DNA of 64,000 bases from NCBI RefSeq assembly GCF_001466665.1, contig NZ_KQ758903.1, positions 617,684-681,683 on the forward strand. Reading direction: 5' to 3'. This document shows, piece by piece, positions 11,653 through 27,512 of the stretch; position 1 is the first letter of the stretch, and each line of letters begins with the position of its first letter. Position numbers and translations under genes: made by a program. The notes under the pieces were generated by a model, which worked only from the letters and a program-made list of their open reading frames with translations, searched no databases and was not told where the DNA came from. Origin of the DNA: Dehalogenimonas alkenigignens (GTDB lineage: Bacteria > Chloroflexota > Dehalococcoidia > Dehalococcoidales > Dehalococcoidaceae).

Positions 11653-11661
11653 GATAACCTC

Positions 11662-12357: not shown

Positions 12358-12362
12358 CGGCG

Positions 12363-12554
12363 TCAGTCCTTCTTCCGGTTGATGCAGATGAACTTGCCCC
12401 AGATGACACCGCCCATGGCGATGAGGCAACTGCCGCTGGTGGTCACCACCAGGCCGAAATCGACGGAACTGGCCAGCTCGATGCCGATACCGACGCCGGT
12501 GGCGCCGATGCCCACGAGCTCGATGACGATAGCCGCAATCATTCCCTTGTTCAT
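12363..12554 (-). CDS. Small two-helix membrane protein
   Basis: A 63-residue, Gly- and Ile-rich protein with two membrane helices (MIAAIVIELVGIGATGVGIG and GLVVTTSGSCLIAMGGVIW) and a basic tail (KFICINRKKD) that should face the cytoplasm or particle interior. It directly follows the protease gene and precedes the holin-like gene. No family is recognised; the role is likely membrane-structural. Confidence 0.55.
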   Translation of the reverse strand: MNKGMIAAIVIELVGIGATGVGIGIELASSVDFGLVVTTSGSCLIAMGGVIWGKFICINRKKD

Positions 12555-13811
12555 CTATATCGCTCCCATTACACCGGCCATCATCATCATGGCGGTCATC
12601 ATTTGAACCATTTCCGCTGTCTGAGCGCTGGGTGAAGCATTACTCATCACCTGGCCGAGCATGGCGCCCATGGCCGGCAGGCCGTAGCCGTAGGCATTGT
12701 CCTTGCCGAGAGGCGCATCCTGCGGCTTGGTCGAAAAATACGGCGCCACTTCCCTGGCCGCCGTCCAGCGGTAGCCCCAGCCCTCGCCGTAGGCTCTGCG
12801 GCCGCTTTCCCAGAGAAGCCCAGTGAGACCTGAAAGCATCGGCGCCGCAAAGCTCGTTCCCGACTTCACCAGGAAGCCCTCGTCGTTTTTATCGGAGGCC
12901 ATTTCGAGGTTGGTGCCCCAGATGACGAAATCCGGCTTGGTCTCGCCCTGGACAGTCGGGCCGCGCGAGGATCTCTCCCAGACAAGAAGCTCGCCTAACG
13001 TCTCCACAGCGCCTACAGCGATGACCTCCGGCTCGCAGGCCGGCAGCATCACCGTCGTCATCTTGGGGCCGGTGTTACCTGCCGCGGCGATGACGTCCAG
13101 GCCGTATTCGACGCTTGCCATGCGGCAGGCCACCCGGACCGGATTATCGGGGTCACCGTCGTCCTCGCCACCGAGCGAGAGGTTGACGACATTGGGATAC
13201 ATTTCATCGGTCGGCAAAAGCCCGGATGTCCTTGCCTGCTCGGCAAGGTCGCACACCCGGTCGATGCCGAGCACGATGGCTTCGTCCGAGGCGATACCCT
13301 CGTCGCCGATGACCTTGATGTTCATGATGGAGGCGCCGGGTGAGACACCGGCATTCGCGCCCAGGGCGTGCATTCCGCCGGCCACGGTGAAGGCCACCTG
13401 GGTGCCGTGGCCGAAGACATCGGCAGCAGTCGGCGAATCGGTGAAGTTGGCCTCGTAGACCACCTTGTCCTGAAGCGACCGGTGGGTCTTACGGACGCCG
13501 CTATCTAAAACTGCCACGGTTAGGCCGGTGCCGGTGATCGGCGGAGCGAAATAGCTCCGCAGGAGATAGAAGACGTCCGAGATGCTTTCGGCCGGCGGCG
13601 CCTGGGCGGCCATCTGACTGGTGCCGTATTCCTTGAGGGGCTTAAGCACCAGACCCGGGACCGCGGCCAGTTTCTCGGCCTGGGATTGGTCCAATTCACA
13701 GAAGACCTGGCCGATGACCTCCGCCTTTTTCAGGTTCCGGGCGCCAGCCTTCCTGGCTTCTTCTTCGATCCGATCGATTGATAGTCCTTTGGAAACAAGA
13801 GCGTAGCGCAT
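12555..13811 (-). CDS. Subtilisin-like serine protease with Met-rich C-terminal helix
   Basis: A 418-residue S8 protease. The triad is D103 (VAVLDSGVRKTH), H135 (FGHGTQVA) and S320 (SGTSFAAP), with the oxyanion Asn at about 246 (AAAGNTGPK). Residues 1-65 look like a propeptide (SIDRIEEEARKAGARNLKKA...). No signal peptide is seen. The last 25 residues (EMVQMMTAMMMMAGVMGAI) form a Met-rich hydrophobic helix like those in neighbouring structural-like proteins, so it is probably anchored in the same membrane. Processing of element proteins or host entry/exit are the main hypotheses. Confidence 0.88.
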   Translation of the reverse strand: MRYALVSKGLSIDRIEEEARKAGARNLKKAEVIGQVFCELDQSQAEKLAAVPGLVLKPLKEYGTSQMAAQAPPAESISDVFYLLRSYFAPPITGTGLTVAVLDSGVRKTHRSLQDKVVYEANFTDSPTAADVFGHGTQVAFTVAGGMHALGANAGVSPGASIMNIKVIGDEGIASDEAIVLGIDRVCDLAEQARTSGLLPTDEMYPNVVNLSLGGEDDGDPDNPVRVACRMASVEYGLDVIAAAGNTGPKMTTVMLPACEPEVIAVGAVETLGELLVWERSSRGPTVQGETKPDFVIWGTNLEMASDKNDEGFLVKSGTSFAAPMLSGLTGLLWESGRRAYGEGWGYRWTAAREVAPYFSTKPQDAPLGKDNAYGYGLPAMGAMLGQVMSNASPSAQTAEMVQMMTAMMMMAGVMGAI

Positions 13812-13820
13812 GTCATCTCC

Positions 13821-14576
13821 TTACGCCGGATAGGCGAGCTGGATGGTGTAGGTCACCTTGAGCTGGCCGGTGCTAGGCACGTTTACCGTGGATGCCAGGA
13901 GGTCACGGGAGAACATGATAGTGCCGGTCCCGGCCGAGGCGAACTTGACCTTGCCGTACAGTCCGACCTCGTTCACATCGATGGCGGCGCCGGAGTTGTT
14001 ATTGATGTAACGGATCAGGGTATCGGTGAGGGTCTTGGTTGGCGCATCATAAGTAATCGAGTGGAGGTCCGACTGGGCATAGTCCATCTGCCCGGCCCCG
14101 GAGCCATTGGCGATCGGAGCCCCCAGGACGTATCCATCGAACGATTCGGGAAAGTTATTGGTGCCGACGATGATGCCTTTATCCGTTGCGCCGGCCGTGG
14201 CCAGAAACCCGGTATTGGTCGAGCGGTCATTAACATTAACGCCTTCATCCAAGCCAGCGACCTGGTTCAAGCCCCAGCCGGATCCATTGGGATAGACACT
14301 ACCGCTCGTCCACTTGAGGGATATCGCGCCGGCTTCGAACAGGTTGGTCCCAGTTAGGCCATAGGCGGCCATCTGGGAAAAGAGGAAGTTATAGGCGTTG
14401 CGGTTCCAGGAATGGCTCCGCTGCTTGTGGGCATGGATGGTTTTGCCGTCCCCGTCCCGGACCTCCATTTCGAGGAAGGTCTTGAAAACGGGCAGCTTGA
14501 GCTCGGTGCCCAGCTTTTCAAAGCGGCGGTACTTGGTTTCAAGTTTTGGGTCCTCAATGTAGAATCGTTCGTTCAT
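13821..14576 (-). CDS. Large structural-like protein of the late module
   Basis: A 251-residue soluble protein; I use ATG at 14576 behind an AGGAGA site rather than the upstream TTG. It begins ERFYIEDPKLETKYRRFEKL, similar in style to the FYVEDSKTK opening of the protein at 15094-15561. The middle has MEVRDGDGKTIHAHKQRSHS and Gly/Asn/Ser-rich turns, and the C-terminus is beta-rich (VGLYGKVKFASAG, GQLKVTYTIQLAYP). This resembles virion proteins from diverse phages by pattern. It is one of two or three candidates for a main particle protein. Confidence 0.55.
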   Translation of the reverse strand: MNERFYIEDPKLETKYRRFEKLGTELKLPVFKTFLEMEVRDGDGKTIHAHKQRSHSWNRNAYNFLFSQMAAYGLTGTNLFEAGAISLKWTSGSVYPNGSGWGLNQVAGLDEGVNVNDRSTNTGFLATAGATDKGIIVGTNNFPESFDGYVLGAPIANGSGAGQMDYAQSDLHSITYDAPTKTLTDTLIRYINNNSGAAIDVNEVGLYGKVKFASAGTGTIMFSRDLLASTVNVPSTGQLKVTYTIQLAYPA

Positions 14577-14589
14577 TTTCGTTTTTCTC

Positions 14590-15093
14590 CTAAACAAGTT
14601 GTGCTGTCACGCCGATGCTCGGCGCCGGGACAACGAGCGCCATGGCTCTGCTTTGAGCCAAATCGACATTGGCTTCGTGCGACACCGCGATACCTGGCGC
14701 CGCAATAGAAAGCGCCTTCCCGGCCGTAAAGGAGCCCCCGGAGTGGTCCTCGGCTGTTAATAGAGCCATTGACGGTCTCGGCATGACCAGGAGTGGCAGG
14801 GACGCGACACGGTTCACGGCGCCGGTCATGTAGATAATGAGCTCCTGGATGTCGAGCCAGCCCGGCCGTCCCGATCCGTGATTCAAGGCTTTAAGGACGT
14901 TGTAGCCGTTGCCGTACTCCAGGGGCAGTCTTTCGAATACGGCGTTACCCCGATAAATAATGTCGCCCGGTTGCATCGACGTGCCGATTCCGCCGAGGTT
15001 GCGGATGAGCTTGCCGCCCCAGTCCTTGTCGGTATCGATCTCGATCTCGGAAAGCCTGGATACTCCCGATTTCGCCCTTACGAAAAGGCTCAC
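14590..15093 (-). CDS. Fibre-like protein with GDIIYRG domain
   Basis: A 167-residue protein. It contains WGGKLIRNLGG, MQPGDIIYRGNAVFERLPLE and WLDIQELIIYMTGA, the order seen in short phage fibre domains (a GD-x-x-YRG turn followed by an RL-P-x segment). The C-terminal half is hydrophobic-Ala rich with alternating small residues. It lies between two structural-like genes with almost no spacing (its start abuts the upstream stop). A fibre or spike component is inferred. Confidence 0.55.
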   Translation of the reverse strand: MSLFVRAKSGVSRLSEIEIDTDKDWGGKLIRNLGGIGTSMQPGDIIYRGNAVFERLPLEYGNGYNVLKALNHGSGRPGWLDIQELIIYMTGAVNRVASLPLLVMPRPSMALLTAEDHSGGSFTAGKALSIAAPGIAVSHEANVDLAQSRAMALVVPAPSIGVTAQLV

Positions 15094-15561
15094 CTACATC
15101 GCCTCCAGCAGAAAGTCGTAGTCGACCGCCTTGCCGTTGTCGGCCGGGTCGTTGCTCTGGACGGTCACCCTTAGTGTGTCGTGGATCGCCCAACTTCCGT
15201 TCACTATCGGCAGTCCCGACCCGTCGGCGGCGGCATCGAAAGACTGCTCGTAAACTCTTCGCTCCACGCCGTTTATCTTCTTGTACAGCCGGACCGTTAC
15301 CTGGGTTCCGGTGAGGTTCTGGATGCCGAGCGAAAGGTCGTGCAGCTTGTATTTCGCGCCGGGCGCACCGACAACGATCAGGTTGCTTTCGGCGGCTTGC
15401 CAGTCGGCGACGGCGAAACCAACGTAAGGCACCTCGCCGGCAAGCTTGTCGGTCTGGTTTCTCACCACCTCCAGTTTCGCTTCCAGGCTGGCAACGGCCG
15501 CTTCTATGGCCTTCAGGGAGACCTTTGTTTTGCTGTCCTCGACGTAGAACTCGCCTGGCAT
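15094..15561 (-). CDS. Coiled-coil plus beta-sandwich structural-like protein
   Basis: A 155-residue protein. Residues about 12-45 form a coiled coil (LKAIEAAVASLEAKLEVVRN). The rest is a compact beta-sandwich: KYKLHDLSLGIQNLTGTQVT, RLYKKINGVERRVYEQ, then DTLRVTVQSNDPADNG and YDFLLEAM. Coiled-coil stalk plus terminal beta domain is a classic trimeric spike layout. Its start overlaps the stop of the upstream gene by one base. No signal peptide or membrane helix is present. Confidence 0.55.
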   Translation of the reverse strand: MPGEFYVEDSKTKVSLKAIEAAVASLEAKLEVVRNQTDKLAGEVPYVGFAVADWQAAESNLIVVGAPGAKYKLHDLSLGIQNLTGTQVTVRLYKKINGVERRVYEQSFDAAADGSGLPIVNGSWAIHDTLRVTVQSNDPADNGKAVDYDFLLEAM

Positions 15562-16127
15562 CAGCTTCCCCTCCCTGGCGGCAACTGTTTCACCGGCTCT
15601 CTTCCCGGCTCAAGGCGTTTGGTTTCATCCTTTTTGGGCTTCATCGCCGATGCAACCATGCCGAGCATCATAACCGGCAGCATGAAGCCAAGGAGCGAGG
15701 TCCAATCGAAGCCATTCGTGCCGGTGTTCACCGGCGCTCCCGGCCAGGCTGGCGGCAGAACTGAGCTGGCCGGAGATACCAGCATGGTGGCCACCGAGTC
15801 GATGACCTCGCCAGTGTCTTTCTCGTGTAGAAGCAGCGTCAGGACCGCGTTGGTCTCGGAAAAGCGCAAAGCGCCTTTAAGCCTGGCGACATCCCCCGGC
15901 TCGACTTTGAACCAGGTGTAACCGAAGACCGGCAGGGCTTCTTCGCTGATCTGGGTTGCATCCCGTGACAGCCGGGCTAAGAGGGCATACTCTTTGTCGA
16001 CGTCCGTGGGATTGGCCACATAGACGGAAAGGCCGAGGTCGTAGCCCGGGGTATAGTAAAGCCACGGCGGCAGGTCCCAGAAGACGTCGCCCAGCGCTCC
16101 ACCCATAACCGATGACGCTTGGCTCAT
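15561..16127 (-). CDS. Ig-like protein with C-terminal membrane helix
   Basis: A 188-residue protein. Residues 20-120 are beta-rich with aromatic strands (WLYYTPGYDLGLSVYVANPT, FGYTWFKVEPGD). Residues about 146-164 (LLGFMLPVMMLGMVASAM) form a Met-containing membrane helix, followed by a very basic tail (KPKKDETKRLEPGREPVKQL). The basic tail predicts C-terminus inside and beta domain outside. ATGA overlap with the upstream 53-residue gene indicates coupled translation. It matches the anchored-spike layout seen in several neighbours. Confidence 0.6.
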   Translation of the reverse strand: MSQASSVMGGALGDVFWDLPPWLYYTPGYDLGLSVYVANPTDVDKEYALLARLSRDATQISEEALPVFGYTWFKVEPGDVARLKGALRFSETNAVLTLLLHEKDTGEVIDSVATMLVSPASSVLPPAWPGAPVNTGTNGFDWTSLLGFMLPVMMLGMVASAMKPKKDETKRLEPGREPVKQLPPGRGS

Positions 16128-16285
16128 AGAGGGAACTCCACGTCCTCGCCCTTGAGGGCTTTTCTCACCGTGGACAGAGCCCAGGCACCCAGGGCGACCA
16201 TCATGGCGACGCCGATAACGGCCGAAAACGCCGATTGCCAGAACATCGGCTGATAGTTGTTGTACTCTGCGGGATAGCTGGTCAC
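16124..16285 (-). CDS. Small membrane protein, 53 residues, GTG start
   Basis: A GTG overlapping the upstream stop (GTGA) opens a 53-codon frame whose stop overlaps the next ATG (ATGA). The product starts MTSYPAEYNNYQPMFWQSAF and continues SAVIGVAMMVALGAWALSTV as one membrane helix, then a charged tail (RKALKGEDVEFPL). The overlapping stop/start signals on both sides and the Tyr/Gln-rich N-terminus, as in other short proteins of this module, make it convincing despite its size. Confidence 0.65.
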   Translation of the reverse strand: MTSYPAEYNNYQPMFWQSAFSAVIGVAMMVALGAWALSTVRKALKGEDVEFPL

Positions 16286-16782
16286 GATTTAGCCTCGGGC
16301 AGTTTCTTGGGTTTTGAAGGGGACGTTAGCGGCTTCATCACCTGCATCAGGATGAACATGACCAGAAGCATCATGCCCATGTTGATGAGCCTGCTGATGA
16401 GATTTTTCACGTCTTCCGGGATGAGCCACCAGATGACGGTGCCGACCAGCGGCGGCAGGGCGATGAAGCCGATGATGCCGGCGATAATTGGCAGCCAGGC
16501 CATACCCTTCTGCCAGGCGAGATAGACGGCAGGTTTATCGGGATCGGCATGGACGATATAGCTGTTGCCGGACCAGTGCTCGACGCCGGCATTGGTAAAA
16601 GCCTGCTCTATCTCTGCTAAAGTCTCGGCCGAAGGAAAATCCTCGAAATCGAGCCGGGCTAAGAAAAGAGCGCCTTCGTCTGAGCTCTCTTCGAGCGGGG
16701 CGAAGGCGCCCAGTCCTTCAATGCTGCCGGCAATTCCCAGAGGTATCGCCCGGTAGCCCGGCGGCACCATCGCATAGGGCAT
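16282..16782 (-). CDS. Membrane protein with soluble N-domain and Met-rich helix
   Basis: A 166-residue protein. Residues 1-90 are soluble and look like a small alpha/beta domain (FLARLDFEDFPSAETLAEIE, HWSGNSYIVHADP). Two hydrophobic regions follow: WLPIIAGIIGFIALPPLVGT and a Met-rich helix INMGMMLLVMFILMQVM, then a basic Pro/Lys tail (SKPKKLPEAKS). The overall scheme, soluble head plus Met-rich helix plus basic tail, repeats that of its downstream neighbours. No family is recognised. Confidence 0.6.
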   Translation of the reverse strand: MPYAMVPPGYRAIPLGIAGSIEGLGAFAPLEESSDEGALFLARLDFEDFPSAETLAEIEQAFTNAGVEHWSGNSYIVHADPDKPAVYLAWQKGMAWLPIIAGIIGFIALPPLVGTVIWWLIPEDVKNLISRLINMGMMLLVMFILMQVMKPLTSPSKPKKLPEAKS

Positions 16783-16799
16783 GGGAAGCCTCCCTACGC

Positions 16800-17396
16800 T
16801 TAGACCAGCCGCCTGGCCTTGCGGCCGTACGGACTGAGGGTCACCTTTCGAGCCGCGGTGGTACCGCCGGCGGCGGTCACCGTGGCGATCACCGTCAACT
16901 TGTCGCCGCCAACAAGCCGGAGATCGGCGCCGAGCTGCCCGGCCGCGGACAGGTCATAGTTGGTGTTACCGCCTGCCGCCTGGTCGGTGCCCAGGTACTT
17001 CTTGTCAATGGCGTCCGTCTTCGGGAACTTCGAGACGCGGATGTTGCCGGAGACCTCGGCCTCGGTGACGAGGTTGAGGCGGTTCAAGAACCACACCTCG
17101 CCAGCCGGCACTTCCAGCTCGACGGTCTTCACCGTGTCCTGGGCGGATGCGTCAGGTACTGTCACCTCGACCTTATCGCGCTCGTCGATCCTGTCCTCGG
17201 TATGGATGGCTTCAGCGTTAAGCAGGGCCTCGCGAAGGACCTGGAGCGGCAAGCCCATCCAGGCGCCGGACTCGTTGTCGTAAACGCCGATTAAGGCAAG
17301 CGACTGCCCCAGCGGGGGCACCCAGCCCTTGGGAGGCCGCGCCCCGGGATAACCCGGGTATTGCTGCGGGATATTCTCTTTCGTCATGAATTTCAT
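16800..17396 (-). CDS. Beta-sandwich structural-like protein, capsid/coat candidate
   Basis: A 198-residue soluble protein. After a Pro/Gly/Tyr-rich N-terminus (QQYPGYPGARPPKGW) comes a helical stretch, then a run of beta strands: TVKTVELEVPAGEVWFLNRL, SGNIRVSKFP, LRLVGGDKLTVIATVTAAGG. Such a single beta-sandwich with a PAGE-x-W-x-L turn is typical of small virion proteins. It lies directly after the two most Met-rich membrane peptides. I consider it a good coat-protein candidate, but this rests on pattern alone. Confidence 0.5.
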   Translation of the reverse strand: MKFMTKENIPQQYPGYPGARPPKGWVPPLGQSLALIGVYDNESGAWMGLPLQVLREALLNAEAIHTEDRIDERDKVEVTVPDASAQDTVKTVELEVPAGEVWFLNRLNLVTEAEVSGNIRVSKFPKTDAIDKKYLGTDQAAGGNTNYDLSAAGQLGADLRLVGGDKLTVIATVTAAGGTTAARKVTLSPYGRKARRLV

Positions 17397-17418
17397 TCCT
17401 CCTGTCTAACGGGCTCGC

Positions 17419-17613
17419 CTAGGACTTTGAAGTGATGCCCTTCATCATCGGCATCAGGATGGCCATCATCATCACCATCATGATCATCGGCATCATCGCC
17501 GAGAACATGCCGGTCATGTCGGTGGTCTGAAGGGGATAGTAGCCGCCGACGGTGCCGTACTGGTACTGCTGCGGGCGGATCTGCTGGGTATTGAACTGCT
17601 GCGCGGGATACAT
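17419..17613 (-). CDS. Met-rich membrane peptide A
   Basis: A 64-residue protein with a Gln/Tyr-rich N-terminus (MYPAQQFNTQQIRPQQYQYG) and a C-terminal helix, FSAMMPMIMMVMMMAIL then MPMMKG, in which about half of the residues are methionine. The protein at 17650-17853 has an almost identical C-terminal half, so these are tandem paralogues with diverged N-termini. Copy number and simplicity suggest an abundant membrane subunit of a particle or surface structure. Confidence 0.65.
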   Translation of the reverse strand: MYPAQQFNTQQIRPQQYQYGTVGGYYPLQTTDMTGMFSAMMPMIMMVMMMAILMPMMKGITSKS

Positions 17614-17649
17614 TTTCTAGCTACCTCCTACGTTAGCTTTCGTTTTGGT

Positions 17650-17853
17650 TCAGTCCTTGGACGTGACGCCCTTCATCATGGGCATGATGATAGCCATCAT
17701 CATCACCATCATGATCATCGGCATCATGGCGGAAAACATCCCCGAGAAGGGATCGGTGGTCTGGCTCGGGTAGTAGGCCGAAGGTCCGGCCACCTGCATC
17801 GGACCCGCCTGGCCCGGTGCGAACGGCCCGCTGATTTGCTGTGTCCTGTACAT
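17650..17853 (-). CDS. Met-rich membrane peptide B
   Basis: A 67-residue paralogue of the next gene downstream. The N-terminus differs (MYRTQQISGPFAPGQAGPMQ) while the helix FSAMMPMIMMVMMMAII and the end MPMMKGVTSKD are nearly the same. A ribosome site (AAGGAGAAAG) precedes the ATG. Conservation of the helix with variable N-terminus suggests that the helix packs in a shared membrane and the N-terminus makes specific contacts. Confidence 0.65.
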   Translation of the reverse strand: MYRTQQISGPFAPGQAGPMQVAGPSAYYPSQTTDPFSGMFSAMMPMIMMVMMMAIIMPMMKGVTSKD

Positions 17854-17894
17854 CGCTTTCTCCTTACTGCTTTCGGTTGATCTTCATGCGCTGG

Positions 17895-17984
17895 CCTGAT
17901 GCCGTCTCCCCCGGGCTACATCCCTCACCGCCGCCGCGACGGCGGTGAGGGATTCAAAACCAGCCTCCAGGGGAGGGCATCAGG
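17895..17984. repeat. Two-tier inverted repeat (cruciform-like)
   Basis: An outer stem pairs CCTGATGCC (17895-17903) with GGCATCAGG (17976-17984) and CTCCCC (17906-17911) with GGGGAG (17970-17975). An inner perfect 13-bp stem pairs TCCCTCACCGCCG (17921-17933) with 17940-17952 around a six-base loop. It lies between the MGxYA short gene and the Met-rich peptides. There is no T-tract, so a processing signal, packaging-type site or recombinase site is as likely as a terminator. Confidence 0.6.
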
Positions 17985-17995
17985 CGAAGGTGGCG

Positions 17996-18208
17996 CTACT
18001 CGAACATGGCGCGCTTGTAGCCGCTAACCATGACCGGACCCTTGCCGTCGACGCCGTCGCGATAATGGCTTACCCGGCCTTCCTTGACCTTGAGGCCGGA
18101 CGGCGCGATGCCGTTCATGCCGGTGCGGAAGGCTTCGGGGGTGGCTTTCTCCTGATAGGCGACGGGGACATTCTTTTCCAGGTCGTTCCAGCTGGCGTAC
18201 TTACCCAT
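17996..18208 (-). CDS. MGxYA-family small protein, short form
   Basis: A 70-residue hydrophilic protein (MGKYASWNDLEKNVPVAYQE...) with a strong AGGAGG ribosome site. It is a shorter paralogue of the protein at 8146-8454: both share MG(K/R)YA, a V-x-Y-(Q/R)-E element, a GM-x-x-IAP-x-G core and a C-terminal AMF. It is the first gene after the strong promoter and hairpin leader at 18.35-18.44 kb, so it should be highly expressed if the leader is read through. Function unknown. Confidence 0.6.
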   Translation of the reverse strand: MGKYASWNDLEKNVPVAYQEKATPEAFRTGMNGIAPSGLKVKEGRVSHYRDGVDGKGPVMVSGYKRAMFE

Positions 18209-18283
18209 ACGGGCACCTCCTATTTAGTCTCGGTCCGTTCGCGGCCGGGACAATTTTCGGGGTGCACCCTGGTCGGAAAGGCA

Positions 18284-18327
18284 AAGGGGTCAGCCTGAAC
18301 TTTACCGATCCAGAGTGCTGACCCCTT
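18284..18327. repeat. 11-bp inverted repeat in the late leader
   Basis: AAGGGGTCAGC (18284-18294) and its exact complement (18317-18327) flank a 22-base centre. On the leftward transcript it lies about 80 bases after the presumed start and about 75 bases before the first gene. It could be an antitermination or protein-binding site; no T-run follows it. Confidence 0.5.
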
Positions 18328-18350
18328 ATCGAAGCCTATGAGCTGCCGTG

Positions 18351-18400
18351 AAAAACAACGAGCCTCGTGAGCCGGGTTTTTCCGGCAAGCTCACGAGGCT
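18351..18400 (-). terminator. Hairpin with T-run directly after the late promoter
   Basis: A perfect 12-bp stem (AGCCTCGTGAGC at 18361-18372 with its complement at 18389-18400) has inner pairing of CCGG/CCGG across AAAAA. On the minus strand it is followed by CGTTGTTTTT, an intrinsic-terminator layout. The predicted transcription start is only about five bases upstream, so the promoter would mainly yield an RNA of roughly 55 bases unless termination is overridden. It would also end transcripts of the cargo gene. Confidence 0.65.
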
Positions 18401-18411
18401 TACGGTTTCAG

Positions 18412-18439
18412 ATTATACAGGCTGTAATTGGCCTGTCAA
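18412..18439 (-). promoter_or_regulatory. Near-consensus sigma-70-type promoter, leftward
   Basis: On the minus strand TTGACA (18439-18434) and TATAAT (18417-18412) are separated by 16 bases, both boxes being perfect matches to the housekeeping consensus. It is the best promoter I see in the window. It lies downstream of the GHKL/nuclease stop and drives leftward into a hairpin leader and then the late module. Confidence 0.75.
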
Positions 18440-18516
18440 TAGGGTGAGGGTATTTTAGCTTTAATTGCTAGTCACCCGATAAAGGCCAACTAATTTCTTG
18501 TATTGTTATGGAGTGG

Positions 18517-20574
18517 TTAGGCTTTGGGGATGCAAACCACGGGTGGTTGTACAGATGAACTTCTTTTTTGTCTCTTAACGATGGCATTGGCCTCATCATT
18601 GTTTGTAACGAGTTTGTCTCTTTCGAGTTCGAGCTTCTCACTAATAAATCTATGGTGAAGATCGAATTCGGTAAATATTTCACTCCACTTTTTCACATAG
18701 ATTCTGTACCGGTTATTTTTGAATACGAGAGATTTTTCGCCATGTGATTGAGCATTCTCGAATTGTCTCTCAATGTGACCTGAGCCATCAAAACAGTTAC
18801 CGATCAGATAGAATTCCCAATGCATATTTGATCCATTAAACATCGGTTCGTTAATAATTACGTTCAAGTACGTATCGACTTGATCCAATTCCTTCTTACC
18901 TAACTTTATAGAAGGATGTTTCAATTCTACAACAATGTTGTTAATAATATCGTGCTGATAGTCCTGACGCACTGCAAATATATCCATCTCCCTGTTCTTA
19001 TCTACGTGATCAATTTGAACAGGTTTCTTTTCACCTCGTAAATAATAAATATACCGTCTCAAAGCCTCTTCGAATTTTGTCTCTGCCGCAGCAACTAAGT
19101 GGTATTGCTCACCAAAAAGCCAATAATGCTTTTCAACTACCGCTTGTATGTGATCTTTTTCATTGGCGTGAAGTGCGGGATTAAAAACAAGTTGCTTTAA
19201 GTCTTCAATGGTCCTATAACGATCCTCGATTAGCCGGATAGTGGAAATAATACTTGAGAGCCGAGTCGCTTTTAGGAGATCCGCGAAATCCTTCCTTTCA
19301 TCAGAATCAAGGCTTACTATTCCTTCGAGAATCTGAAACAACTTGTCTTTTTCATCCGCATCGATAATCAGGTCCAGAAGACCGAACATTGTCTTTTTTT
19401 GTTCTTGATTAAGATTAGAAAATATTTTGGGTTCAATCTGAAATATGCCTTTAACCACATTTTTGAGCTCATCTCTTCGGGCTCTCTCCCAAAGATTGTC
19501 GGAGTTGCATTTTGGGAACACCTGCTCAGATTCTAGGTCAATAACAAGCTTGTCAGCATATTCTGATAGAAATGGTTTTCGTTTCTTTCTAAGAAGCTTG
19601 TCAATTTCTGTCTTTATATATTTGTATTCGTCATCCTTCTTTGAATGCCCAAAGAGCTGGTTTTGGGGTATTGTCTCATCTGTATTAATAATAAAATTGT
19701 CGAATAATTCACTTTTAACAAACACACTGTGATAGTAATGATCGGATTTGTTATTCAGCGTTGTCGTTTCTTTGAAAACTTCATTTTCCTTGGAATCGAT
19801 AAAGTAGTATCTGGAAAATTCGTCATTGATACGGGTATTCCATTGAATATACTTGATTTCAAAGACCAAGCCGGTGGATTGATATGTTTGGCAAAACACA
19901 CCTTTATCGCCGATAATCGAGCTGTAGTCTAAAGCCTTTCCATTAATACTTAAGCAATAACATTTGGATTGATTTAATTCTAAGAACCACCCAAATTCTC
20001 TTTTTAAAAATTCCTTAATATCGGTCTCAAAATTATAGGCGGTTATATTTTTGATACCATCAAACGTAACTGTCGTTCCTGGCAAATCCTCTACTTCTTT
20101 AGGGGGCGTCGAATCATAATGGTTTAACTTATTCGCGTTCGTCTCTATCCGGTATTGATAATTATGACCTTCCGATTGGTAGACTGTATCCCATGTGGCT
20201 TTGAAGGCAAAATGAAAAAATGTAAGCCGGCCAACGCCGTTTTTCCCATGCACAGCTGACGTAAGCTGCGCCTGCATCGTCGAGGCAAGTTTTTCTGATT
20301 CATAAAACGGAACGAATTTCGATGGCAAACGATCATAGGGAATTCCATATCCATTGTCTTTTATCGAAAGAGAAGCAATGTTCCCAATTTCGTTACAAAC
20401 AAAAGACAAATCTACAGAAGTGGCTTTGGCATCAAAGCCATTCCAAATGAACTCTGCTAACGCTTTACAGTAATTGTAATCGCTCAGGGCTTTTTTAATG
20501 CCCGGTACTGTAATCTCAATTTTTGCCATAGCTAAGTCAGTTTTCGGTACATCATGAAACGTAAATGCGGTCAT
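18517..20574 (-). CDS. GHKL ATPase fused to Shedu-like nuclease, defence candidate
   Basis: A 685-residue protein. The N-terminus is a complete Bergerat ATP-binding fold: E41/N45/D48 (EFIWNGFDAKAT), DNGYG at 73-77 and HGKNGVGR at 109-116, as in MORC/Hsp90/MutL-type ATPases. The C-terminal 200 residues begin HYWLFGEQYHL (about 485) and have MDIFAVRQ, then VELKHPS (about 550) and LDQVDTYL, a PD-(D/E)xK nuclease order typical of Shedu SduA/DUF4263. ATGA overlap couples it to the upstream gene. It is visibly richer in A+T than all neighbours, indicating separate acquisition. Antiphage cargo is the inferred role. Confidence 0.8.
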   Translation of the reverse strand: MTAFTFHDVPKTDLAMAKIEITVPGIKKALSDYNYCKALAEFIWNGFDAKATSVDLSFVCNEIGNIASLSIKDNGYGIPYDRLPSKFVPFYESEKLASTMQAQLTSAVHGKNGVGRLTFFHFAFKATWDTVYQSEGHNYQYRIETNANKLNHYDSTPPKEVEDLPGTTVTFDGIKNITAYNFETDIKEFLKREFGWFLELNQSKCYCLSINGKALDYSSIIGDKGVFCQTYQSTGLVFEIKYIQWNTRINDEFSRYYFIDSKENEVFKETTTLNNKSDHYYHSVFVKSELFDNFIINTDETIPQNQLFGHSKKDDEYKYIKTEIDKLLRKKRKPFLSEYADKLVIDLESEQVFPKCNSDNLWERARRDELKNVVKGIFQIEPKIFSNLNQEQKKTMFGLLDLIIDADEKDKLFQILEGIVSLDSDERKDFADLLKATRLSSIISTIRLIEDRYRTIEDLKQLVFNPALHANEKDHIQAVVEKHYWLFGEQYHLVAAAETKFEEALRRYIYYLRGEKKPVQIDHVDKNREMDIFAVRQDYQHDIINNIVVELKHPSIKLGKKELDQVDTYLNVIINEPMFNGSNMHWEFYLIGNCFDGSGHIERQFENAQSHGEKSLVFKNNRYRIYVKKWSEIFTEFDLHHRFISEKLELERDKLVTNNDEANAIVKRQKRSSSVQPPVVCIPKA

Positions 20575-20801
20575 TTTACCTCAAACATGGCTTGATTCCA
20601 ATTACGCCACTTCTTTTCTTGAGCTTCGGCGTAACGCCTCACCGCCTTTGCCGCCCAATCCCTCCATTTAGCTGCCAGCATGTCTTCACTTCGAGATTGA
20701 GCAGCCGCCGGAGGAGACGCCTCCTCCGGCGGTCTTCGCATCTCGTAATCAGCCCTCAGGAGCGCAGCGATAGCGAGCAAGGTAATGTAGTTATTCCACA
20801 T
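20571..20801 (-). CDS. Small protein with AMFE tail
   Basis: A 76-residue protein; its ATG overlaps the upstream stop. Residues 1-16 (MWNNYITLLAIAALLR) are hydrophobic, followed by a Pro/Ala-rich linker and a basic helix (KWRDWAAKAVRRYAEAQEKK). It ends NWNQAMFEVK, like the AMF endings of the two MGxYA proteins. It is translationally coupled to the downstream ATPase/nuclease gene (ATGA). It may be a native element gene next to which the cargo inserted; no family is recognised. Confidence 0.5.
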   Translation of the reverse strand: MWNNYITLLAIAALLRADYEMRRPPEEASPPAAAQSRSEDMLAAKWRDWAAKAVRRYAEAQEKKWRNWNQAMFEVK

Positions 20802-21038
20802 TGATGATCTTGCCTTTGATGCCGAACATCGTGGAAAAGCCCCAGGCCAATTGCTCGCAGAGTTTATCCACCGGCTCGCCAAGGTCGAGTTTCTCATTCG
20901 GGTCCAGGAGATAGAACCTGACCTCGAGCCGGCCTTCCTTCCGGCGCTTGGTGATCTCCATGCCCATATGGCGCCCGACCTCCTGGGCCTGTTCCATTTG
21001 CTGCCGGCTGATGCCGGCCATTCCCGGATTAAACATTA
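20791..21038 (-). CDS. Small hypothetical protein, single-domain
   Basis: An 82-residue protein starting MFNPGMAGISRQQMEQAQEV, with the start overlapping the upstream stop (TAATG). A helical N-terminus is followed by a short alpha/beta region (GRLEVRFYLLDPNEKLDLGE, FGIKGKIINVE). It is soluble, with no recognised family. Its place next to the zinc-finger protein and before the cargo gene suggests it ends the early replication-type module. Confidence 0.55.
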
Positions 21039-21821
21039 CATGCCTCCTTTCTGTTGTTCTGTCTCCCAGCCTTCCGGTACGCCACCGCCACCCCGGCCCG
21101 GGAACATCTGCTGCTCCATCATGCCCCACACCATGTCCATCACCTTGTCGATCCTTTTGGCGTAGGCCTCATCGACCGTCTTCGGCGGCGGTCCCTTGGG
21201 CAACTTCTCCTCGATGTAGCCCAAGACACCGCCGACCGCCTCCTGGGCCGCTTCCCTGGCCATTTCCGAACTGGCGCCCCGGGCCCTGGCCGCCGCGGCA
21301 TCGAGTTCCTCACGAGAGGCGTTCAGCATCCGAAGAAGCGGCTCGAAGCGTTTGGCTTCGGCTTCAGCCTGCGTCTTTTGGATCTGGGCCAGCTCCATCA
21401 CAAGAAGCATTGACGACCGGAGCTTCATCATGCCCCGGAGCTCGCATTCCTCTTCGTAGCTGTCGCCCATGTATCGGCGCAGGACCGCCTCCGGGGAGAT
21501 GACCTCGCTCTGCTTGTACGTCGCCGGCAGGGCGCTTGATTGGGCGTCGGCTGCCGGGATCATCTTGGCCAGTTCCTGGCGGACCGTTCTTTCTTTGAAA
21601 TGAAGGTCTTTGGTGAGTTGCTCGAAGCTGTAACCCTGGCCCAGGTACTCCCGGATCTCGGCGGCGATGCTTTCTTCATCGACCTTTACTTCCACCTGTT
21701 CGGGGGCCTGGTTTTCGCTCATGGGCTGTTCATCCTTATTCACCGGATGGGCGCCCGACGTATGACCGCCGAGGGCCTTAATCGATTTAAACTTCCTGTT
21801 GCAGATCTTGCATGTGTACAC
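21036..21821 (-). CDS. C2H2 zinc-finger protein with long helical C-terminus
   Basis: A 261-residue protein with a GTG start behind AGGAGG. The N-terminus is a single C2H2 finger: C4, C7, H20, H25, with KALGGH at the helix (15-20), strikingly like the QALGGH helix known from plant C2H2 proteins. Residues about 50-85 look like a helix-turn-helix (EIREYLGQGYSFEQL, KERTVRQELAKMI). The rest is helical (ELAQIQKTQAEAEAKRFEPL) and ends in a Gly/Met/Gln-rich tail. A DNA-binding regulator or nucleoid/packaging protein of the element is inferred. Confidence 0.65.
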   Translation of the reverse strand: MYTCKICNRKFKSIKALGGHTSGAHPVNKDEQPMSENQAPEQVEVKVDEESIAAEIREYLGQGYSFEQLTKDLHFKERTVRQELAKMIPAADAQSSALPATYKQSEVISPEAVLRRYMGDSYEEECELRGMMKLRSSMLLVMELAQIQKTQAEAEAKRFEPLLRMLNASREELDAAAARARGASSEMAREAAQEAVGGVLGYIEEKLPKGPPPKTVDEAYAKRIDKVMDMVWGMMEQQMFPGRGGGGVPEGWETEQQKGGM

Positions 21822-21860
21822 TTCCTGCCTCCTGTGACCGGCGCCGCGCCGGGTAAAAAG

Positions 21861-22019
21861 TCAACGAACCATCCTGTGGAACGTACAGGCCGTGACTACA
21901 GTGTAAATACCCGCTGTAAATACCCGCCTGTGAATACCCGAAATTGACTTCATATCCCGGATTCTTCTCCCCAGGGGGTCACCCCCTCCCCATCGTCCGG
22001 CGAGTCGCCCAGAACTCAT
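21861..22019 (-). CDS. Possible 52-residue protein over the 13-bp repeats
   Basis: An ATG overlapping the ATPase stop (ATGA) opens a 52-codon basic frame (MSSGRLAGRWGGGDPLGRRI...). The overlap is like other junctions of the operon, but the C-terminal half is encoded by tandem 13-bp DNA repeats and composition is not convincing. It may be a chance frame over a regulatory repeat region. Confidence 0.25.
   Translation of the reverse strand: MSSGRLAGRWGGGDPLGRRIRDMKSISGIHRRVFTAGIYTVVTACTFHRMVR
21902..21941. repeat. Three tandem 13-bp repeats (TGTAAATACCCGC)
   Basis: Two exact copies of TGTAAATACCCGC (21902-21914 and 21915-21927) are followed by a third with one change (TGTGAATACCCG, 21929-21940). 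They lie in the gap between the ATPase gene and the zinc-finger gene. Short tandem direct repeats of this kind are typical iterons or operators; the adjacent zinc-finger protein is an obvious candidate reader. Confidence 0.65.
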
Positions 22020-22930
22020 TTTGTTCCTCCTTCCAAAAGTAATTTGATTGCCTTTTCTACGCCGAGTTGAGGGGCGAGGCGCGCTACCCTTATGGCATCT
22101 CGGACGTTCTGGGTGAGGCCGTCTAGGCGGCCGGCGATCTCTACGGCAAGCTCGGCACTTAAGCCTTCGCATCGCACCAGCACGCCCTGTACCACAGTGA
22201 GATATTCCGCCCGGCCGTAAGGAAAGAGCTGCCGGATGGCAAACCGCGACCTCAGCTCCGGCGACAGTTTTTCGCTTCTGTTGGATGCGGCAATCACTCG
22301 AATGGGATTACTCAGGTTGAGCTCACGGCCTCTTTTGGCTCGCACCAATCGCCCGCCTTCCATCATAGTGAGAAGCGCCGCGGTGTCGGCGGAGTTCATC
22401 TTGTCGATCTCATCAATAAGAAGAATCCCCGGCTCCCGCTCGGCCACCAGGTCCCATAGCCCGGCCTTCGAAGTGGCTGATCCCACTAGCCAGATGGCTT
22501 TCTCGCCGCCCGCCCTTTCGATGTCCCACAGAAACAGCGTCTTGGCCAGCGCCGGCGGACCGGTGAGGAGCACGTGCACCGGCTTTTCGGCAAGGAGCGA
22601 GGCCCTCAGAAGCTCTTTTACGCCGTCATGGCCGATGATGTCCCCGAAAAGAGAGTCGGTCTCGGCTGGTTTTGGCTCCTGGCGCGTCTGGGGCGGTGCG
22701 TTTTCGGCTGAAAGAAGGCTTCTGCCCATTTCGCTCAACCGGTAACCGGTATGGGAGTTGGAGCGGAAGACGTTTTCGAGGTAGCCGTCCTTGAAAAGCC
22801 GGGAGAGCGTCGCTGGCCAGATGCGGACCTGCCGCCAGCCCCAGCCGATGCGGTAGTCCTTGTCCATGTCGACCGAGTCTTCAAACCGTGCGATCTCCGA
22901 AAGCAACTCCAGGGTGTTGTCGTCCTTCAT
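22016..22930 (-). CDS. MoxR-like AAA+ ATPase with N-terminal winged helix
   Basis: A 304-residue protein; ATG at 22930 follows a GGAGGTGG site. Residues 1-75 look like a winged helix (WPATLSRLFKDGYLENV, TGYRLSEMGRSLLS). The AAA+ core has Walker A GPPALAKT (124-131), Walker B LLIDEID (170-176), sensor 1 AASNRSEK and an arginine-rich SPELRSRF. This resembles MoxR/McrB-like ATPases that remodel protein complexes. A J-domain protein is encoded two bases upstream, so a remodelling/assembly or packaging machine is inferred. It is the only ATPase in the element besides the helicase and the GHKL protein. Confidence 0.82.
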   Translation of the reverse strand: MKDDNTLELLSEIARFEDSVDMDKDYRIGWGWRQVRIWPATLSRLFKDGYLENVFRSNSHTGYRLSEMGRSLLSAENAPPQTRQEPKPAETDSLFGDIIGHDGVKELLRASLLAEKPVHVLLTGPPALAKTLFLWDIERAGGEKAIWLVGSATSKAGLWDLVAEREPGILLIDEIDKMNSADTAALLTMMEGGRLVRAKRGRELNLSNPIRVIAASNRSEKLSPELRSRFAIRQLFPYGRAEYLTVVQGVLVRCEGLSAELAVEIAGRLDGLTQNVRDAIRVARLAPQLGVEKAIKLLLEGGTK

Positions 22931-22932
22931 CG

Positions 22933-23292
22933 CTACCACCTCCTTTCGGCGGAGATTTTCTTGAAGGCCTCCGTTACCATTTGCGTCAGATACTCGGTAC
23001 CCTTGATGCCGGCGGTGTCTGGATGGAGCTTCCGCAGAAGATCGAGATAACGCCGCCTCACCTGCTCTTGCGGCATAGACCGGTCGCAACCGAGAATGCG
23101 GTAGGGGTCGAAAGCCGGCTGAGGGGGCGGCACAACTCTTTCAGCCGCCGAAATGTCCATCCCGAGCCTCTGGGCGAAACCGATGATGACGGCCGGGTCC
23201 GCGGCATTGGTAAAGAGGTCAGCCATGAAAGCCTGAAGCTCGTACGCCAGGTTCTGCTGCATCCGTTTGATACGGTTGAAACGCTCTTCCAT
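22933..23292 (-). CDS. J-domain (DnaJ-like) cochaperone
   Basis: A 119-residue protein; ATG at 23292 lies two bases after the upstream stop. Residues about 60-117 form a J-domain: DPYRILGCD, a positively charged helix II (EQVRRRYLDLLRKL), HPD at 90-92 and helix III (LTQMVTEAFKKISAER). The N-terminal 55 residues are helical. J-domains stimulate DnaK-type Hsp70; pairing with a MoxR-like ATPase in an element operon suggests host Hsp70 recruitment for assembly or replication. Confidence 0.82.
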   Translation of the reverse strand: MEERFNRIKRMQQNLAYELQAFMADLFTNAADPAVIIGFAQRLGMDISAAERVVPPPQPAFDPYRILGCDRSMPQEQVRRRYLDLLRKLHPDTAGIKGTEYLTQMVTEAFKKISAERRW

Positions 23293-23294
23293 GA

Positions 23295-23516
23295 TTACCA
23301 CCAGAAATGACCGCATAAGATGCCCAGGAAGAAGCCGAAGAGGATCTGCCACCAGTATTTGCCACCGAACTTAAAAAGCATCATCCCCAAGCCGAGGAAG
23401 ATGATCATGAAGACGAGAGGCGATTTCTTCTGGTCGTCCCGGATAATCTCAGTCCACGGCCGGCCGCCCACCCGGCGCCACAGGCTTTCATAGAGCCTTC
23501 CCAGAAAATCGATCAC
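23295..23516 (-). CDS. Small two-helix membrane protein
   Basis: A 73-residue protein with a charged N-terminal half (RLYESLWRRVGGRPWTEIIR) and two membrane helices (SPLVFMIIFLGLGMMLFKFG and YWWQILFGFFLGILCGHFWW). It overlaps the upstream zinc-protein gene by four bases. It is the only clear membrane protein of the early module. No family is recognised. Confidence 0.55.
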   Translation of the reverse strand: MIDFLGRLYESLWRRVGGRPWTEIIRDDQKKSPLVFMIIFLGLGMMLFKFGGKYWWQILFGFFLGILCGHFWW

Positions 23517-23758
23517 TTCTTGCCTCCTTTCGGTTTCAGCCAGCCGCGGTCTTCCTGGGAAATGGTTGGGGTCAGCTTGTCGCAGTCAGGGCAGGCCTGG
23601 CAGATGTCGAGCACCAGGGGTTCGCCGCGGGCGAGGCGTTTTAAGTCCAGGCTGCCGGTTCCCGCCTTGAATGACAGCGGGTAGCCCCTGCGGCAATAAA
23701 TGCGCTGCCCCAGCACCCGGGCATGGTTGCAGTCGTAGAGCGATCTCCTTTTTCTCAT
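23513..23758 (-). CDS. Small cysteine-rich, probably zinc-binding protein
   Basis: An 81-residue basic protein with cysteines at C10, C22, C53, C56 and C59 (DCNHARVLGQRIYCRRG... then ICQACPDCDK). The clustered CxxCxxC suggests zinc binding. Its ATG overlaps the replication-protein stop (ATGA). Such small zinc proteins often accompany replication genes in mobile elements; a DNA- or RNA-binding accessory role is possible. No named family is recognised. Confidence 0.55.
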   Translation of the reverse strand: MRKRRSLYDCNHARVLGQRIYCRRGYPLSFKAGTGSLDLKRLARGEPLVLDICQACPDCDKLTPTISQEDRGWLKPKGGKK

Positions 23759-26058
23759 TTCACCCTCATCGAAGACTCTTCTTGTCCATCATCAATATCG
23801 ATGCCCCTCTTATACCCGCCCAAACCGTCCGAACCGTCCGCACTGTCCGCCTCACGATTGAGCTTAGCTTTGGAGCTTGGCGGACGGTTTGTAGGGCTCT
23901 CGGCCAAACCGTCCGCCAAATCAGGGGATTTAGCTTCAGCCGGCGGACGGTTTGAAAAACCGTCTTCAAAACCGTCCGCCGAATTTGTATCTGAAGCGGA
24001 CGGTTCGGACGGAGCGGACGGTTTTTCAGGGGATACGGGGATATCCTGTTTCATGCCGTACATCGAGGCGATCCTTTGAGCCCGCTCAGGCTCCCAGCGG
24101 ATCAGCCTCTGGCGGCCTTTACCGACCCGATCCTTGGCAAAGCCGAGTCTCTTGGTCAGATGACCCACCCGCTCCGCCGTCAGCTCGGACGCCTCTTCAT
24201 CGAGCCGGTTAGCCCGCGTGGCGATGCTCCTCGATGTTAGCTCGCCGCCCTCTCCAACGAGCTCGATCATGGCCGAAAGCACCCGTCCGGCATCGCTCTC
24301 CCGGCGCCTGGCATAGAGTGATTCCTGCAGCCGGTGAACGAAGCTGCCCAGCGCCTCGGCCATGGCGTGATCGCCGTTAAGCATGGCCTTCATGGGAATG
24401 AGTATCTCCTGAAGGCGCGGTTGAAGATTCGGTTCGAGCAGTTCGTTGCCGAAGGTCTTGCCCCTGAGGCGGCAAAGATTGTGAAGACGAAAGGTCAAGA
24501 GCTTTGAGCGCAGGATCCCGACCTCTTTGTCGAAAGATGCCGGAAGCACCCGGGGAATGTCGTCGCGGGAAAGCGGCATCATCTCGGAGGTGAGGCAGCG
24601 GCTCTCCAGAGCTTCGTCGGCAAAAGGAAATCTTGTCGACAAAAGTTTCGGGCCGAATACCTGGTAGCCCCGGGGAAACCATTTGCCGTTTTCCTTGTCG
24701 GCCCGTAAGACCGGCATGCCCGGCCGATAGCCGTTGTTTAGAAGTTTGACCATCTCCGCCCAGGCGGTCGAATCTTTGAAATCGGCCTCATCCAGGACAA
24801 GCGTCCCCCGGAACTGCTCCAGGATGCGAAAGATCGGCGACGGCGTGGTGGCCCCGGAGGCGAACATCGGCCGGAAACAAATGCTGCCGACCACCTGCAG
24901 AAAGCGCGTCTTGCCGGTGCCCCAGTCGCCGATCACCCGAAGATACGGAATCGACGGGGCGAACTCGTACACCCAGCTTAATAGGACATACAGAGAGGCA
25001 ATCTCCTCGAAGTCGGATGGGAGCTCCAGGTAGTAATGAATGAACCTTTGGATTTCGCTGAAAAGTCGAGCCTGCGAATCGTATGGCGCGGCCGTTGGGG
25101 CAAAATGCACCACGTGGCCGACCAGCATGTCCTGGGTCGGCAGGTAAGTCACCTTCGGCGTCTCGTGTTGGTAAGCCTTTCTGACGGCGCCGTTCACCGA
25201 AACCATGAAGTATCGCTCATCCTCATCGACCACCATCTCGCCGACCGTGCCGTCGCGGAGGACGAAGCCGGAGACATAGTGCTCCTTGTCTTCTTCTTCC
25301 AGCTTAAACTCCCCGACGAGCTTTTCGGCATCGGCGAGGGAATGCTTGAGCAGGTAGTCGTCGATCCCAGTTTTTTGCTGGCCTTCCAGTTGGGGCAACT
25401 GGACGATGTGAAGGCTCGCATCCTTGCGCCGGAGGTGTTCGGCGATGTGCGACAATGCCTTTTTCACCGGCTCCTTTGTCGCGATGTCGGAATCGAAGGC
25501 CAGATATACCTGCCGGTCCTTCAGGGCGATGTGATCCCAGTCAGCCAGGAGCGTGACGCCGCCGAACTCGTTCTTGCCCTTGAAGCCCCAGACGCCGGTG
25601 ACCGATATGGCGCAGGCACCGCGGCCAGCGAGGGCATCGGCTTTCTTTGAGCCTTCGGTGATCCAGAGGGGGACCTTGGGGTTGCCGAGGGCCTTCTGGC
25701 AGCGCGGCGGGCAGTCGAGCCGGTTTGACGAACCGGCCGGCAGTTCGTACTTCACCGCTTTGCCCTGATTATTGGTGCGAGGGTTATCGGACCTGAACTG
25801 GTAGCCGGCCGGCTGCCCATCGACGCCCCATAAGGGAATCAAAAGACCTGGCACGCGCTGCTGAGCCGGTGCAAAGCCGAACCTCCCCAGCTCGGCTTTG
25901 CACACGATGCTCCGGTATTTCCGCTCCCGGATGATGTCGAGGTCGAGGCCGGTTTCTTCCAGAAGATGCTTCAGGTGACTTTCCAGAAGCTCCGGCACGG
26001 CCTCGGAGAACACGCCTCCGCTAGCGGTCTTTTCGCCGCTCATGTCTTTCATGGCCAT
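23755..26058 (-). CDS. Replication protein: DUF3854 TOPRIM-like plus helicase ATPase
   Basis: A 767-residue protein. Residues about 60-250 match the TOPRIM-like DUF3854 domain (VPLWITEGSKKADALAGRG, QVYLAFDSDIATKEP, GIDDYLLKH). Residues about 340-560 are an SF3/D5-type helicase ATPase: Walker A GDWGTGKT (about 375), Walker B FRGTLVLDEADF. Residues about 580-680 are helical and may bind DNA. The Ser/Pro/Asp-rich C-terminus is encoded across an array of CGGACGGTT-type DNA repeats, probably a binding site for initiation or control. It is the only replication candidate in the element. ATG at 26052 is an alternative start. Confidence 0.8.
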   Translation of the reverse strand: MAMKDMSGEKTASGGVFSEAVPELLESHLKHLLEETGLDLDIIRERKYRSIVCKAELGRFGFAPAQQRVPGLLIPLWGVDGQPAGYQFRSDNPRTNNQGKAVKYELPAGSSNRLDCPPRCQKALGNPKVPLWITEGSKKADALAGRGACAISVTGVWGFKGKNEFGGVTLLADWDHIALKDRQVYLAFDSDIATKEPVKKALSHIAEHLRRKDASLHIVQLPQLEGQQKTGIDDYLLKHSLADAEKLVGEFKLEEEDKEHYVSGFVLRDGTVGEMVVDEDERYFMVSVNGAVRKAYQHETPKVTYLPTQDMLVGHVVHFAPTAAPYDSQARLFSEIQRFIHYYLELPSDFEEIASLYVLLSWVYEFAPSIPYLRVIGDWGTGKTRFLQVVGSICFRPMFASGATTPSPIFRILEQFRGTLVLDEADFKDSTAWAEMVKLLNNGYRPGMPVLRADKENGKWFPRGYQVFGPKLLSTRFPFADEALESRCLTSEMMPLSRDDIPRVLPASFDKEVGILRSKLLTFRLHNLCRLRGKTFGNELLEPNLQPRLQEILIPMKAMLNGDHAMAEALGSFVHRLQESLYARRRESDAGRVLSAMIELVGEGGELTSRSIATRANRLDEEASELTAERVGHLTKRLGFAKDRVGKGRQRLIRWEPERAQRIASMYGMKQDIPVSPEKPSAPSEPSASDTNSADGFEDGFSNRPPAEAKSPDLADGLAESPTNRPPSSKAKLNREADSADGSDGLGGYKRGIDIDDGQEESSMRVK
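23824..24022. repeat. Array of about 11 ACCGTCC/GGACGGT repeats
   Basis: Copies of the 7-mer ACCGTCC or its complement occur at 23824, 23833, 23842 (one change), 23882, 23908, 23945, 23959 (one change), 23971, 23998, 24007 (one change) and 24016. Two of them form a perfect 15-bp inverted repeat (23877-23891 with 23905-23919). The motif is read in three different reading-frame phases inside the replication gene (as PSA/PSE, ADGF and NRPP), so it is kept as DNA rather than as protein. An origin or iteron function is inferred. Confidence 0.7.
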
Positions 26059-26064
26059 GATTGA

Positions 26065-27048: not shown

Positions 27049-27172
27049 TTCCTTCTCCCTCCGTGTTGATTTCTCTCGTTCTGGCTAAATCCCTCAGGTG
27101 AGCCCTTGCGATCATGCGGGCCCAGATGCGCAGGCCGTTCTCAAAGTCTTCCCTATCGGTTTCAATCGTCAT
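26969..27172 (-). CDS. Short hypothetical protein overlapping two genes
   Basis: A 67-residue frame whose ATG overlaps the stop of the XRE regulator gene and whose end overlaps the next gene by 80 bases. The first 38 residues (TIETDREDFENGLRIWARMI, AHLRDLARTREI) are helical and coding-like; the rest, in the overlap, is low-complexity. It may be a real small protein or a translational relay that brings ribosomes to the next start. No family is recognised. Confidence 0.4.
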   Translation of the reverse strand: MTIETDREDFENGLRIWARMIARAHLRDLARTREINTEGEGNADQGNHRGHQVAEAGQNQARADEGV

Positions 27173-27398: not shown

Positions 27399-27428
27399 GT
27401 GGTACTCCTGAAAGAATTTATGAGCACA

Positions 27429-27457: not shown

Positions 27458-27512
27458 GGGCTGGATGTCACTTTCATCTCAAAACAAATGTAAAATAAAT
27501 GTCAGAAACATG

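Follow-up and report, generated by a model that had tools for sequence, protein, structure and literature searches.

A GHKL ATPase-Shedu nuclease fusion, most likely an anti-phage gene, carried as swappable cargo by an integrative element of Dehalogenimonas alkenigignens

The DNA analyzed here is a 64,000-nucleotide stretch of the Dehalogenimonas alkenigignens genome (the window), and its features are listed in Table 1. On the minus strand, 685 codons were found to be open without interruption at the gene under study. Its ATG shares bases with the stop codon of the backbone gene before it (ATGA), and an SD-like GAGGT precedes the start. The protein may be shorter, with a start near Met16, because residues 1-17 were modelled poorly and many relatives begin near that residue. 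The gene had been described, from the letters alone, as much richer in A+T than its neighbors. This was borne out, as its GC content is 37.9% (GC3 0.39) compared to 56-64% (GC3 0.67-0.83) in six neighboring backbone genes.

Table 1. Features of the window (positions are those of the whole stretch; domain assignments are predictions)
Feature	Position	Strand	Basis
Integrative element, about 25 kb	5390..30460 (approximate; left end inexact)		Copy comparison
Leader hairpin 1, AAGGGGTCAGC/GCTGACCCCTT, backbone	18284..18327	-	Folding, copy comparison
Leader hairpin 2, AGCCTCGTGAGC/GCTCACGAGGCT, backbone	18361..18400	-	Folding, copy comparison
Perfect TTGACA-16-TATAAT promoter-like site (sigma-70 consensus), downstream of cargo	18412..18439	-	12/12; copy comparison
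Variable cargo slot	18463..20571 (right end about)		Backbone conserved as far as about 18462 and from about 20571 onward
GHKL ATPase-Shedu nuclease fusion (paraMORC3/VcSduA-type), 685 aa	18517..20574	-	ORF, domain search, relatives' alignment, structure model
PD-(D/E)xK nuclease domain, about residues 465-650	18625..19182	-	Model, fold comparison, profile comparison
E550-L551-K552, nuclease active site; third acidic residue D531	18919..18927	-	Alignment
WLFGEQY element, residues 485-491; corresponds to W[IL]FG in Shedu proteins	19102..19122	-	Alignments, HHalign
Helical linker, residues 346-464, with invariant R452 inside	19183..19539	-	Model, alignment
S5-like transducer, about residues 173-345	19540..20058	-	Model secondary structure; Hsp90 and MORC2 alignments reach residue 340
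GHKL (Bergerat) ATPase domain, about residues 23-172	20059..20508	-	HATPase_c_3; Hsp90/MORC2/MLH1 folds
GKNGVGR ATP-lid motif, residues 110-116	20227..20247	-	G110, G113, G115 and R116 invariant
E41, predicted general base for ATP hydrolysis	20452..20454	-	In 95/96 relatives; one gap
Small upstream backbone gene, stop overlaps cargo start codon	20571..20897	-	ORFs, copy comparison
Primase-like DUF3854 protein	23755..26058	-	
Gp3-like recombination directionality factor	26065..27048	-	
Large serine recombinase, phrog_95, 3' end overlaps tRNA-Ala(GGC)	28889..30547	+	

The 685-aa protein matched Pfam HATPase_c_3 at residues 33-160 (E 5e-17), and a sub-threshold match to HSDR_N_2 (E 8e-4, whole protein against Pfam) lay in its C-terminal part. 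Phage cluster phrog_6203 (PHROGs v4) covers residues 24-650 (E 4e-68), showing that the full architecture had already been clustered from phage genomes, as a cluster only and with no function assigned. Neither SduA_C (PF14082) nor the PADLOC SduA models matched the protein directly at cut-off. Weak matches to PF14082 were found in 5 of 74 relatives and to PADLOC SduA in 2 of 74, and the missing curated match speaks to the coverage of the models and not to homology.

Conservation was examined in an alignment of 96 diverse relatives. W44, N45, D48, D73, G75, G77, K95, G110, G113, G115 and R116 are invariant in all of them, as are, further along, W245, R452, E472, W485, K552, Q565, Y569 and W630, and E41, D531 and E550 are each present in 95. 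The GHKL motifs (E, DxGxG and the glycine-rich lid) are intact, with their residues kept in 95-96 of the 96 relatives. The E-D-ExK set of the paraMORC3 type is present as the conserved E472, D531, E550 and K552. The sequence-only reading had located E41, the GKNGVGR loop, WLFGEQY and the ELK nuclease site correctly, and all are conserved in 95-96 of the relatives.

Next, the structure was predicted with AlphaFold2 on the alignment of relatives (685 aa, mean pLDDT 91.2, pTM 0.72). In the model, residues 1-340 match the fold of TRAP1/Hsp90 and MORC2 across their GHKL and middle domains (Z 16-18), an alignment that predicts an S5 domain after the GHKL domain, and MLH1/MutL were among the Foldseek matches. 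Structure prediction had been proposed as a check on the C-terminal part, and this part, modelled in isolation, did show a PD-(D/E)xK fold (pLDDT 90). The HATPase_c_3 match and the modelled nuclease fold together uphold the earlier claim that a Bergerat ATPase and a C-terminal nuclease are joined in one protein. Foldseek alone returned no Shedu chain in the top 50 for the nuclease domain, the best match being MspJI (E 0.012), and Shedu structures surfaced only once the PDB matches were re-ranked. B. cereus Shedu (8ti9) then headed the list with Z 9.1 over 140 residues, and E. coli SduA (8ps4) gave Z 8.7 with 147 residues aligned, a Shedu lead over the EndoMS, BspD6I and FokI folds that lies within the tie margin of the method. 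A phmmer search with the protein and a search with the nuclease-domain profile found no credible relative among PDB sequences.

Kinship with Shedu was also judged from profiles. An independent Shedu profile was made from eight Shedu proteins that PF14082 had retrieved from the same phylum, and HHalign of the window family against it gave 91.9% (E 7e-7). With subsets of the Shedu profile, one gave 92.7% over 159 columns and the other two gave 23.5% and 2.8%. The controls gave 68% for HSDR_N_2, 1.5% for Mrr and 0.1% for the reversed profile. At the level of profiles, this favors a Shedu core over the two other nuclease families. HHalign aligns W[IL]FG, D and ExK, so that likening WLFGEQY to an element of SduA was correct.

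The architecture is already known, so the novelty attached to it at first did not hold: it was published in 2008 as paraMORC3 and functionally tested in 2025 as VcSduA. ParaMORC3 proteins combine GHKL and S5 domains with a C-terminal RE-fold domain that carries E-D-ExK (Iyer, Abhiman and Aravind 2008; PMC2292703). The window protein has the same order of domains and the same nuclease residues, and the two are alike in being sporadic and laterally mobile, with some paraMORC3 genes also standing alone. However, the paraMORC3 genes of 2008 were mostly in restriction-modification (R-M) operons, whereas the copy here has no R-M neighbors. VcSduA (V. cholerae A1552 VC_00276) is a GHKL-DUF4263 protein that its authors, with reference to Gu et al. 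2025, placed in type I-D Shedu, and it protects against Drexlerviridae and vibriophage X29, with defence shown in both V. cholerae and E. coli (Nature Microbiology 2025; PMC12137116). E27A and K557A each abolish protection, so that ATPase and nuclease are both needed; cultures were protected at all MOIs tested with host viability preserved (PMC12137116). Its authors modelled an entwined dimer with a clamp-like middle domain, and control of the nuclease by the ATPase is their published hypothesis (PMC12137116). The gating by ATP-driven clamp closure that the sequence-only reading proposed is in essence this hypothesis.

VcSduA and the window protein share an N-terminal GHKL domain with motifs I-IV, a C-terminal PD-(D/E)xK domain of the DUF4263 type, a single-gene layout and a place on a mobile island, and E27 and K557 correspond to E41 and K552 here. 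They differ in host, element and phage targets. The spacing of the catalytic residues is 511 here and 497-521 across relatives, compared to 530 in VcSduA (E27-K557; compared by spacing alone), and no relative in the alignment has the VcSduA spacing. With SduA of B. cereus and E. coli (PDB 8ti8/8ti9 and 8ps4/8ps5) the protein shares the nuclease core fold, the W[IL]FG helix element, D...ExK and a Q-containing helix after the active site. In contrast, those two proteins lack a GHKL ATPase, carry different sensor or clamp domains at the N-terminus, and form tetramers or octamers. The window protein is a distant, laterally acquired member of the type I-D Shedu/paraMORC3 group.

The relatives are widespread and patchy. 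A search for the architecture in genomes had been suggested, and with one short conserved pattern from the alignment it yielded 405 confirmed loci among 84,980 species genomes. Two patterns from the alignment found relatives in 63 viral contigs, where a close-relative scan with the single protein had found nothing, so that the alignment was needed. With the 685-aa protein, tblastn matched 45 plasmid records and two Pasteurella phages. The best matches were from a WWE3 bacterium (48%), Bacteroidota (46%) and a Deinococcus plasmid (43%), and a Paenibacillus plasmid matched at 46.5% over 75%. In a tree of 101 rows the window protein pairs with WWE3, and their clade is a mixture of Fibrobacterota, Bacteroidota, a Deinococcus plasmid and viral contigs. 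The GHKL-nuclease from the congeneric G006 is distant and on a very long branch. These relationships show that the gene has spread laterally and was acquired in this way. Some plasmid-borne relatives adjoin defence genes, namely Drt2 with an R-M pair, a type ISP R-M enzyme and an Abi-family protein, and one relative lies in a Pasteurella phage between tail genes. Separately, six Pedobacter loci (L038, L042, L043, L044, L050 and L053) encode relatives of about 427 aa that have the GHKL-S5 part and lack the nuclease domain; in the two examined, no obvious nuclease gene adjoins.

Conservation as a housekeeping gene would have spoken against the sequence-only reading, and the distribution shows nothing of the kind. 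None of the seven other genomes of the genus has a close homologue. Among 294 genomes of the class, full-length matches were found in the genome itself and in two others (G006 and G620), plus one partial match. Most of the remaining class-level matches are short, confined to the ATPase region and probably mainly MutL. The genus also holds two more GHKL-PD-(D/E)xK fusions, both highly divergent (L003 in G006 and L005 in G004).

The gene lies inside an integrative element that, in addition to the recombination and primase genes of Table 1, codes for proteins of the AAA and DnaJ kinds and, in one block, for small and mostly unrecognized proteins along with a subtilase. Many small membrane proteins were seen as well. 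The host genome is one 1.85-Mb contig, and the block at 12000-18500 occurs at three sites in it: the window, a copy at 90% identity and a copy at 88% that is split by a contig end. The same block was found again at 77-89% identity in G001, G003, G004 and G007, and the element family is present across the genus, with as many as three copies in one genome. A literature search found no paper on this family. No direct repeat of at least 13 bases was found as an attachment site near tRNA-Ala. The absence of a long att repeat is common with large serine recombinases. No capsid, portal or terminase family was recognized in the element and two backbone proteins have relatives in IMG/VR; the element could be an unusual virus or another type of element. 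Elsewhere in it, 8467-9895 is absent from the four other copies compared, in which the backbone joins 8466 to about 9895, and is a possible second insertion. At 6674-8149 (minus strand), a single protein joins DUF192 to an anti-restriction N-terminal domain of the ArdC type.

The window was then compared with nine other element copies with a readable slot (slot equivalents L185, L191/L192, L193, L195-L199 and L201). In all nine, the slot has sharp bounds: the backbone can be followed as far as about 18462 and is picked up again at about 20571 or slightly beyond, and the DNA in between differs. In place of the GHKL-Shedu gene, single copies hold an XRE/M78 protein that matches RosmerTA RmrA (E 3e-63) and has a partner of 216 aa, a protein of 277 aa together with an 8xMP membrane protein, a 233/263-aa pair, an HD-domain protein, and a UvrD helicase best matched by GajB models, a weak label since these models match UvrD helicases broadly. 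Two copies hold a peptidase-MA-like membrane protein with a 119-aa partner, and two (G000 and G004) a 613-aa protein with a weak NERD match. This makes eight cargo types in ten copies, counting the window gene. The main cargo genes have a GC content of 0.37-0.44 compared to 0.53-0.64 for the backbone genes of the window. Cargo was found in either orientation and is, therefore, not simply a member of an operon. The GHKL-Shedu gene is swappable cargo of the element, in agreement with the earlier description of a cargo gene between modules. Several of the other cargos look like defence genes, a role suggested by family matches of which some are weak. The translations of the two 613-aa NERD-like cargos are identical in element copies of two species (G000:C1:1848k, L201, and G004:C1:1860k, L196), suggesting very recent transfer.

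The replication-side genes end on one side of the cargo, and on its other side lies the promoter of the structural-like genes. This promoter-like site reads into the structural-like module, and both of its hexamers are largely conserved among copies. With such a promoter lying just past it, the slot has the classic moron position. The gene had been called a phage moron, and the copy comparison, not position alone, supports the position and composition behind this name: an extra gene between conserved modules, replaced in sister copies and of different composition. A phage as the carrier was not supported, as no capsid, portal or terminase was recognized. The hairpins that had been noted beside the gene are real and strong (z about -4), and together with the promoter they are largely conserved in the ten copies. 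Their proposed regulatory link to the cargo was rejected, as they are parts of the backbone, downstream of a promoter that starts beyond the cargo. Hairpin 2 has a constant stem and two alternative loops among copies (ccgggtttttccggc and ccaacttcagtcggc).

By analogy, the window protein is most likely a single-gene anti-phage nuclease, as the sequence-only reading had proposed, and this is supported by VcSduA, in which the same architecture defends experimentally (PMC12137116). We are fairly confident that it is a stand-alone restriction protein of the paraMORC3/type I-D Shedu kind that acts against phages (or elements), laterally acquired and carried as swappable cargo of the element. GHKL proteins usually dimerize. 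Most likely, the protein would form a dimer, and on binding ATP its GHKL lids and S5/linker clamp would close on foreign DNA or on a phage structure bound to DNA. Closure of the clamp would then position or de-repress the two C-terminal PD-(D/E)xK domains, leading to DNA cutting, and hydrolysis with E41 as the base would reset the clamp. We infer the dimer, the clamp gating, the DNA substrate and activity in the protein's own host.

The same mechanism could be aimed at another target if the protein serves the element by keeping out rival copies or elements related to it (superinfection or plasmid exclusion). Up to three family copies per genome make competition between elements plausible, and the gene is element cargo. 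Against this, the sole tested relative defends against tailed phages (PMC12137116), and the cargos of other copies are not related by sequence, as an immunity function belonging to the backbone would be; we regard exclusion as unlikely. Another possible explanation, which we rate slightly lower still, is that the protein acts like a toxin, as a guardian that kills infected cells (abortive infection) instead of restricting phage DNA directly. A nuclease with an ATP-dependent switch would suit such a role and toxicity of heterologous Shedu expression has been reported (PMC12904381), but VcSduA cultures were protected at every MOI tested and the hosts stayed viable (PMC12137116).

The ATPase profile is nearest in sequence to MLH1/PMS1/MutL, and non-R-M functions were suggested for some stand-alone paraMORC3 proteins (Iyer et al. 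2008; PMC2292703). These points would fit a MutL-like factor that serves the element in DNA repair or recombination, acting in nick-directed processing and not in defence. However, the distribution is patchy, the same slot holds different genes in sister copies, relatives on plasmids have defence neighbors and VcSduA has a defence phenotype, all of which make a repair role very improbable.

With this protein, type I-D Shedu now reaches an anaerobic lineage of the Chloroflexota, and the 405 genome loci, 63 viral contigs and 45 plasmid records indicate how widely the architecture moves. PADLOC and Pfam models miss it and, thus, Shedu is under-counted. The slot, a candidate defence locus, is a more unusual result than the protein itself. 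We lean, if only slightly, toward a previously undescribed multi-copy element family whose dedicated slot, between the replication module and the structural-like promoter, is a revolving door for single- and two-gene defence systems, with at least eight cargo types including GHKL-Shedu and most of the others being uncharacterized defence systems. With its conserved flanks and up to three elements per genome, the slot would provide a natural, unbiased list of candidate defence genes in organohalide-respiring bacteria, and it offers a ready explanation for how such genes enter the genus.
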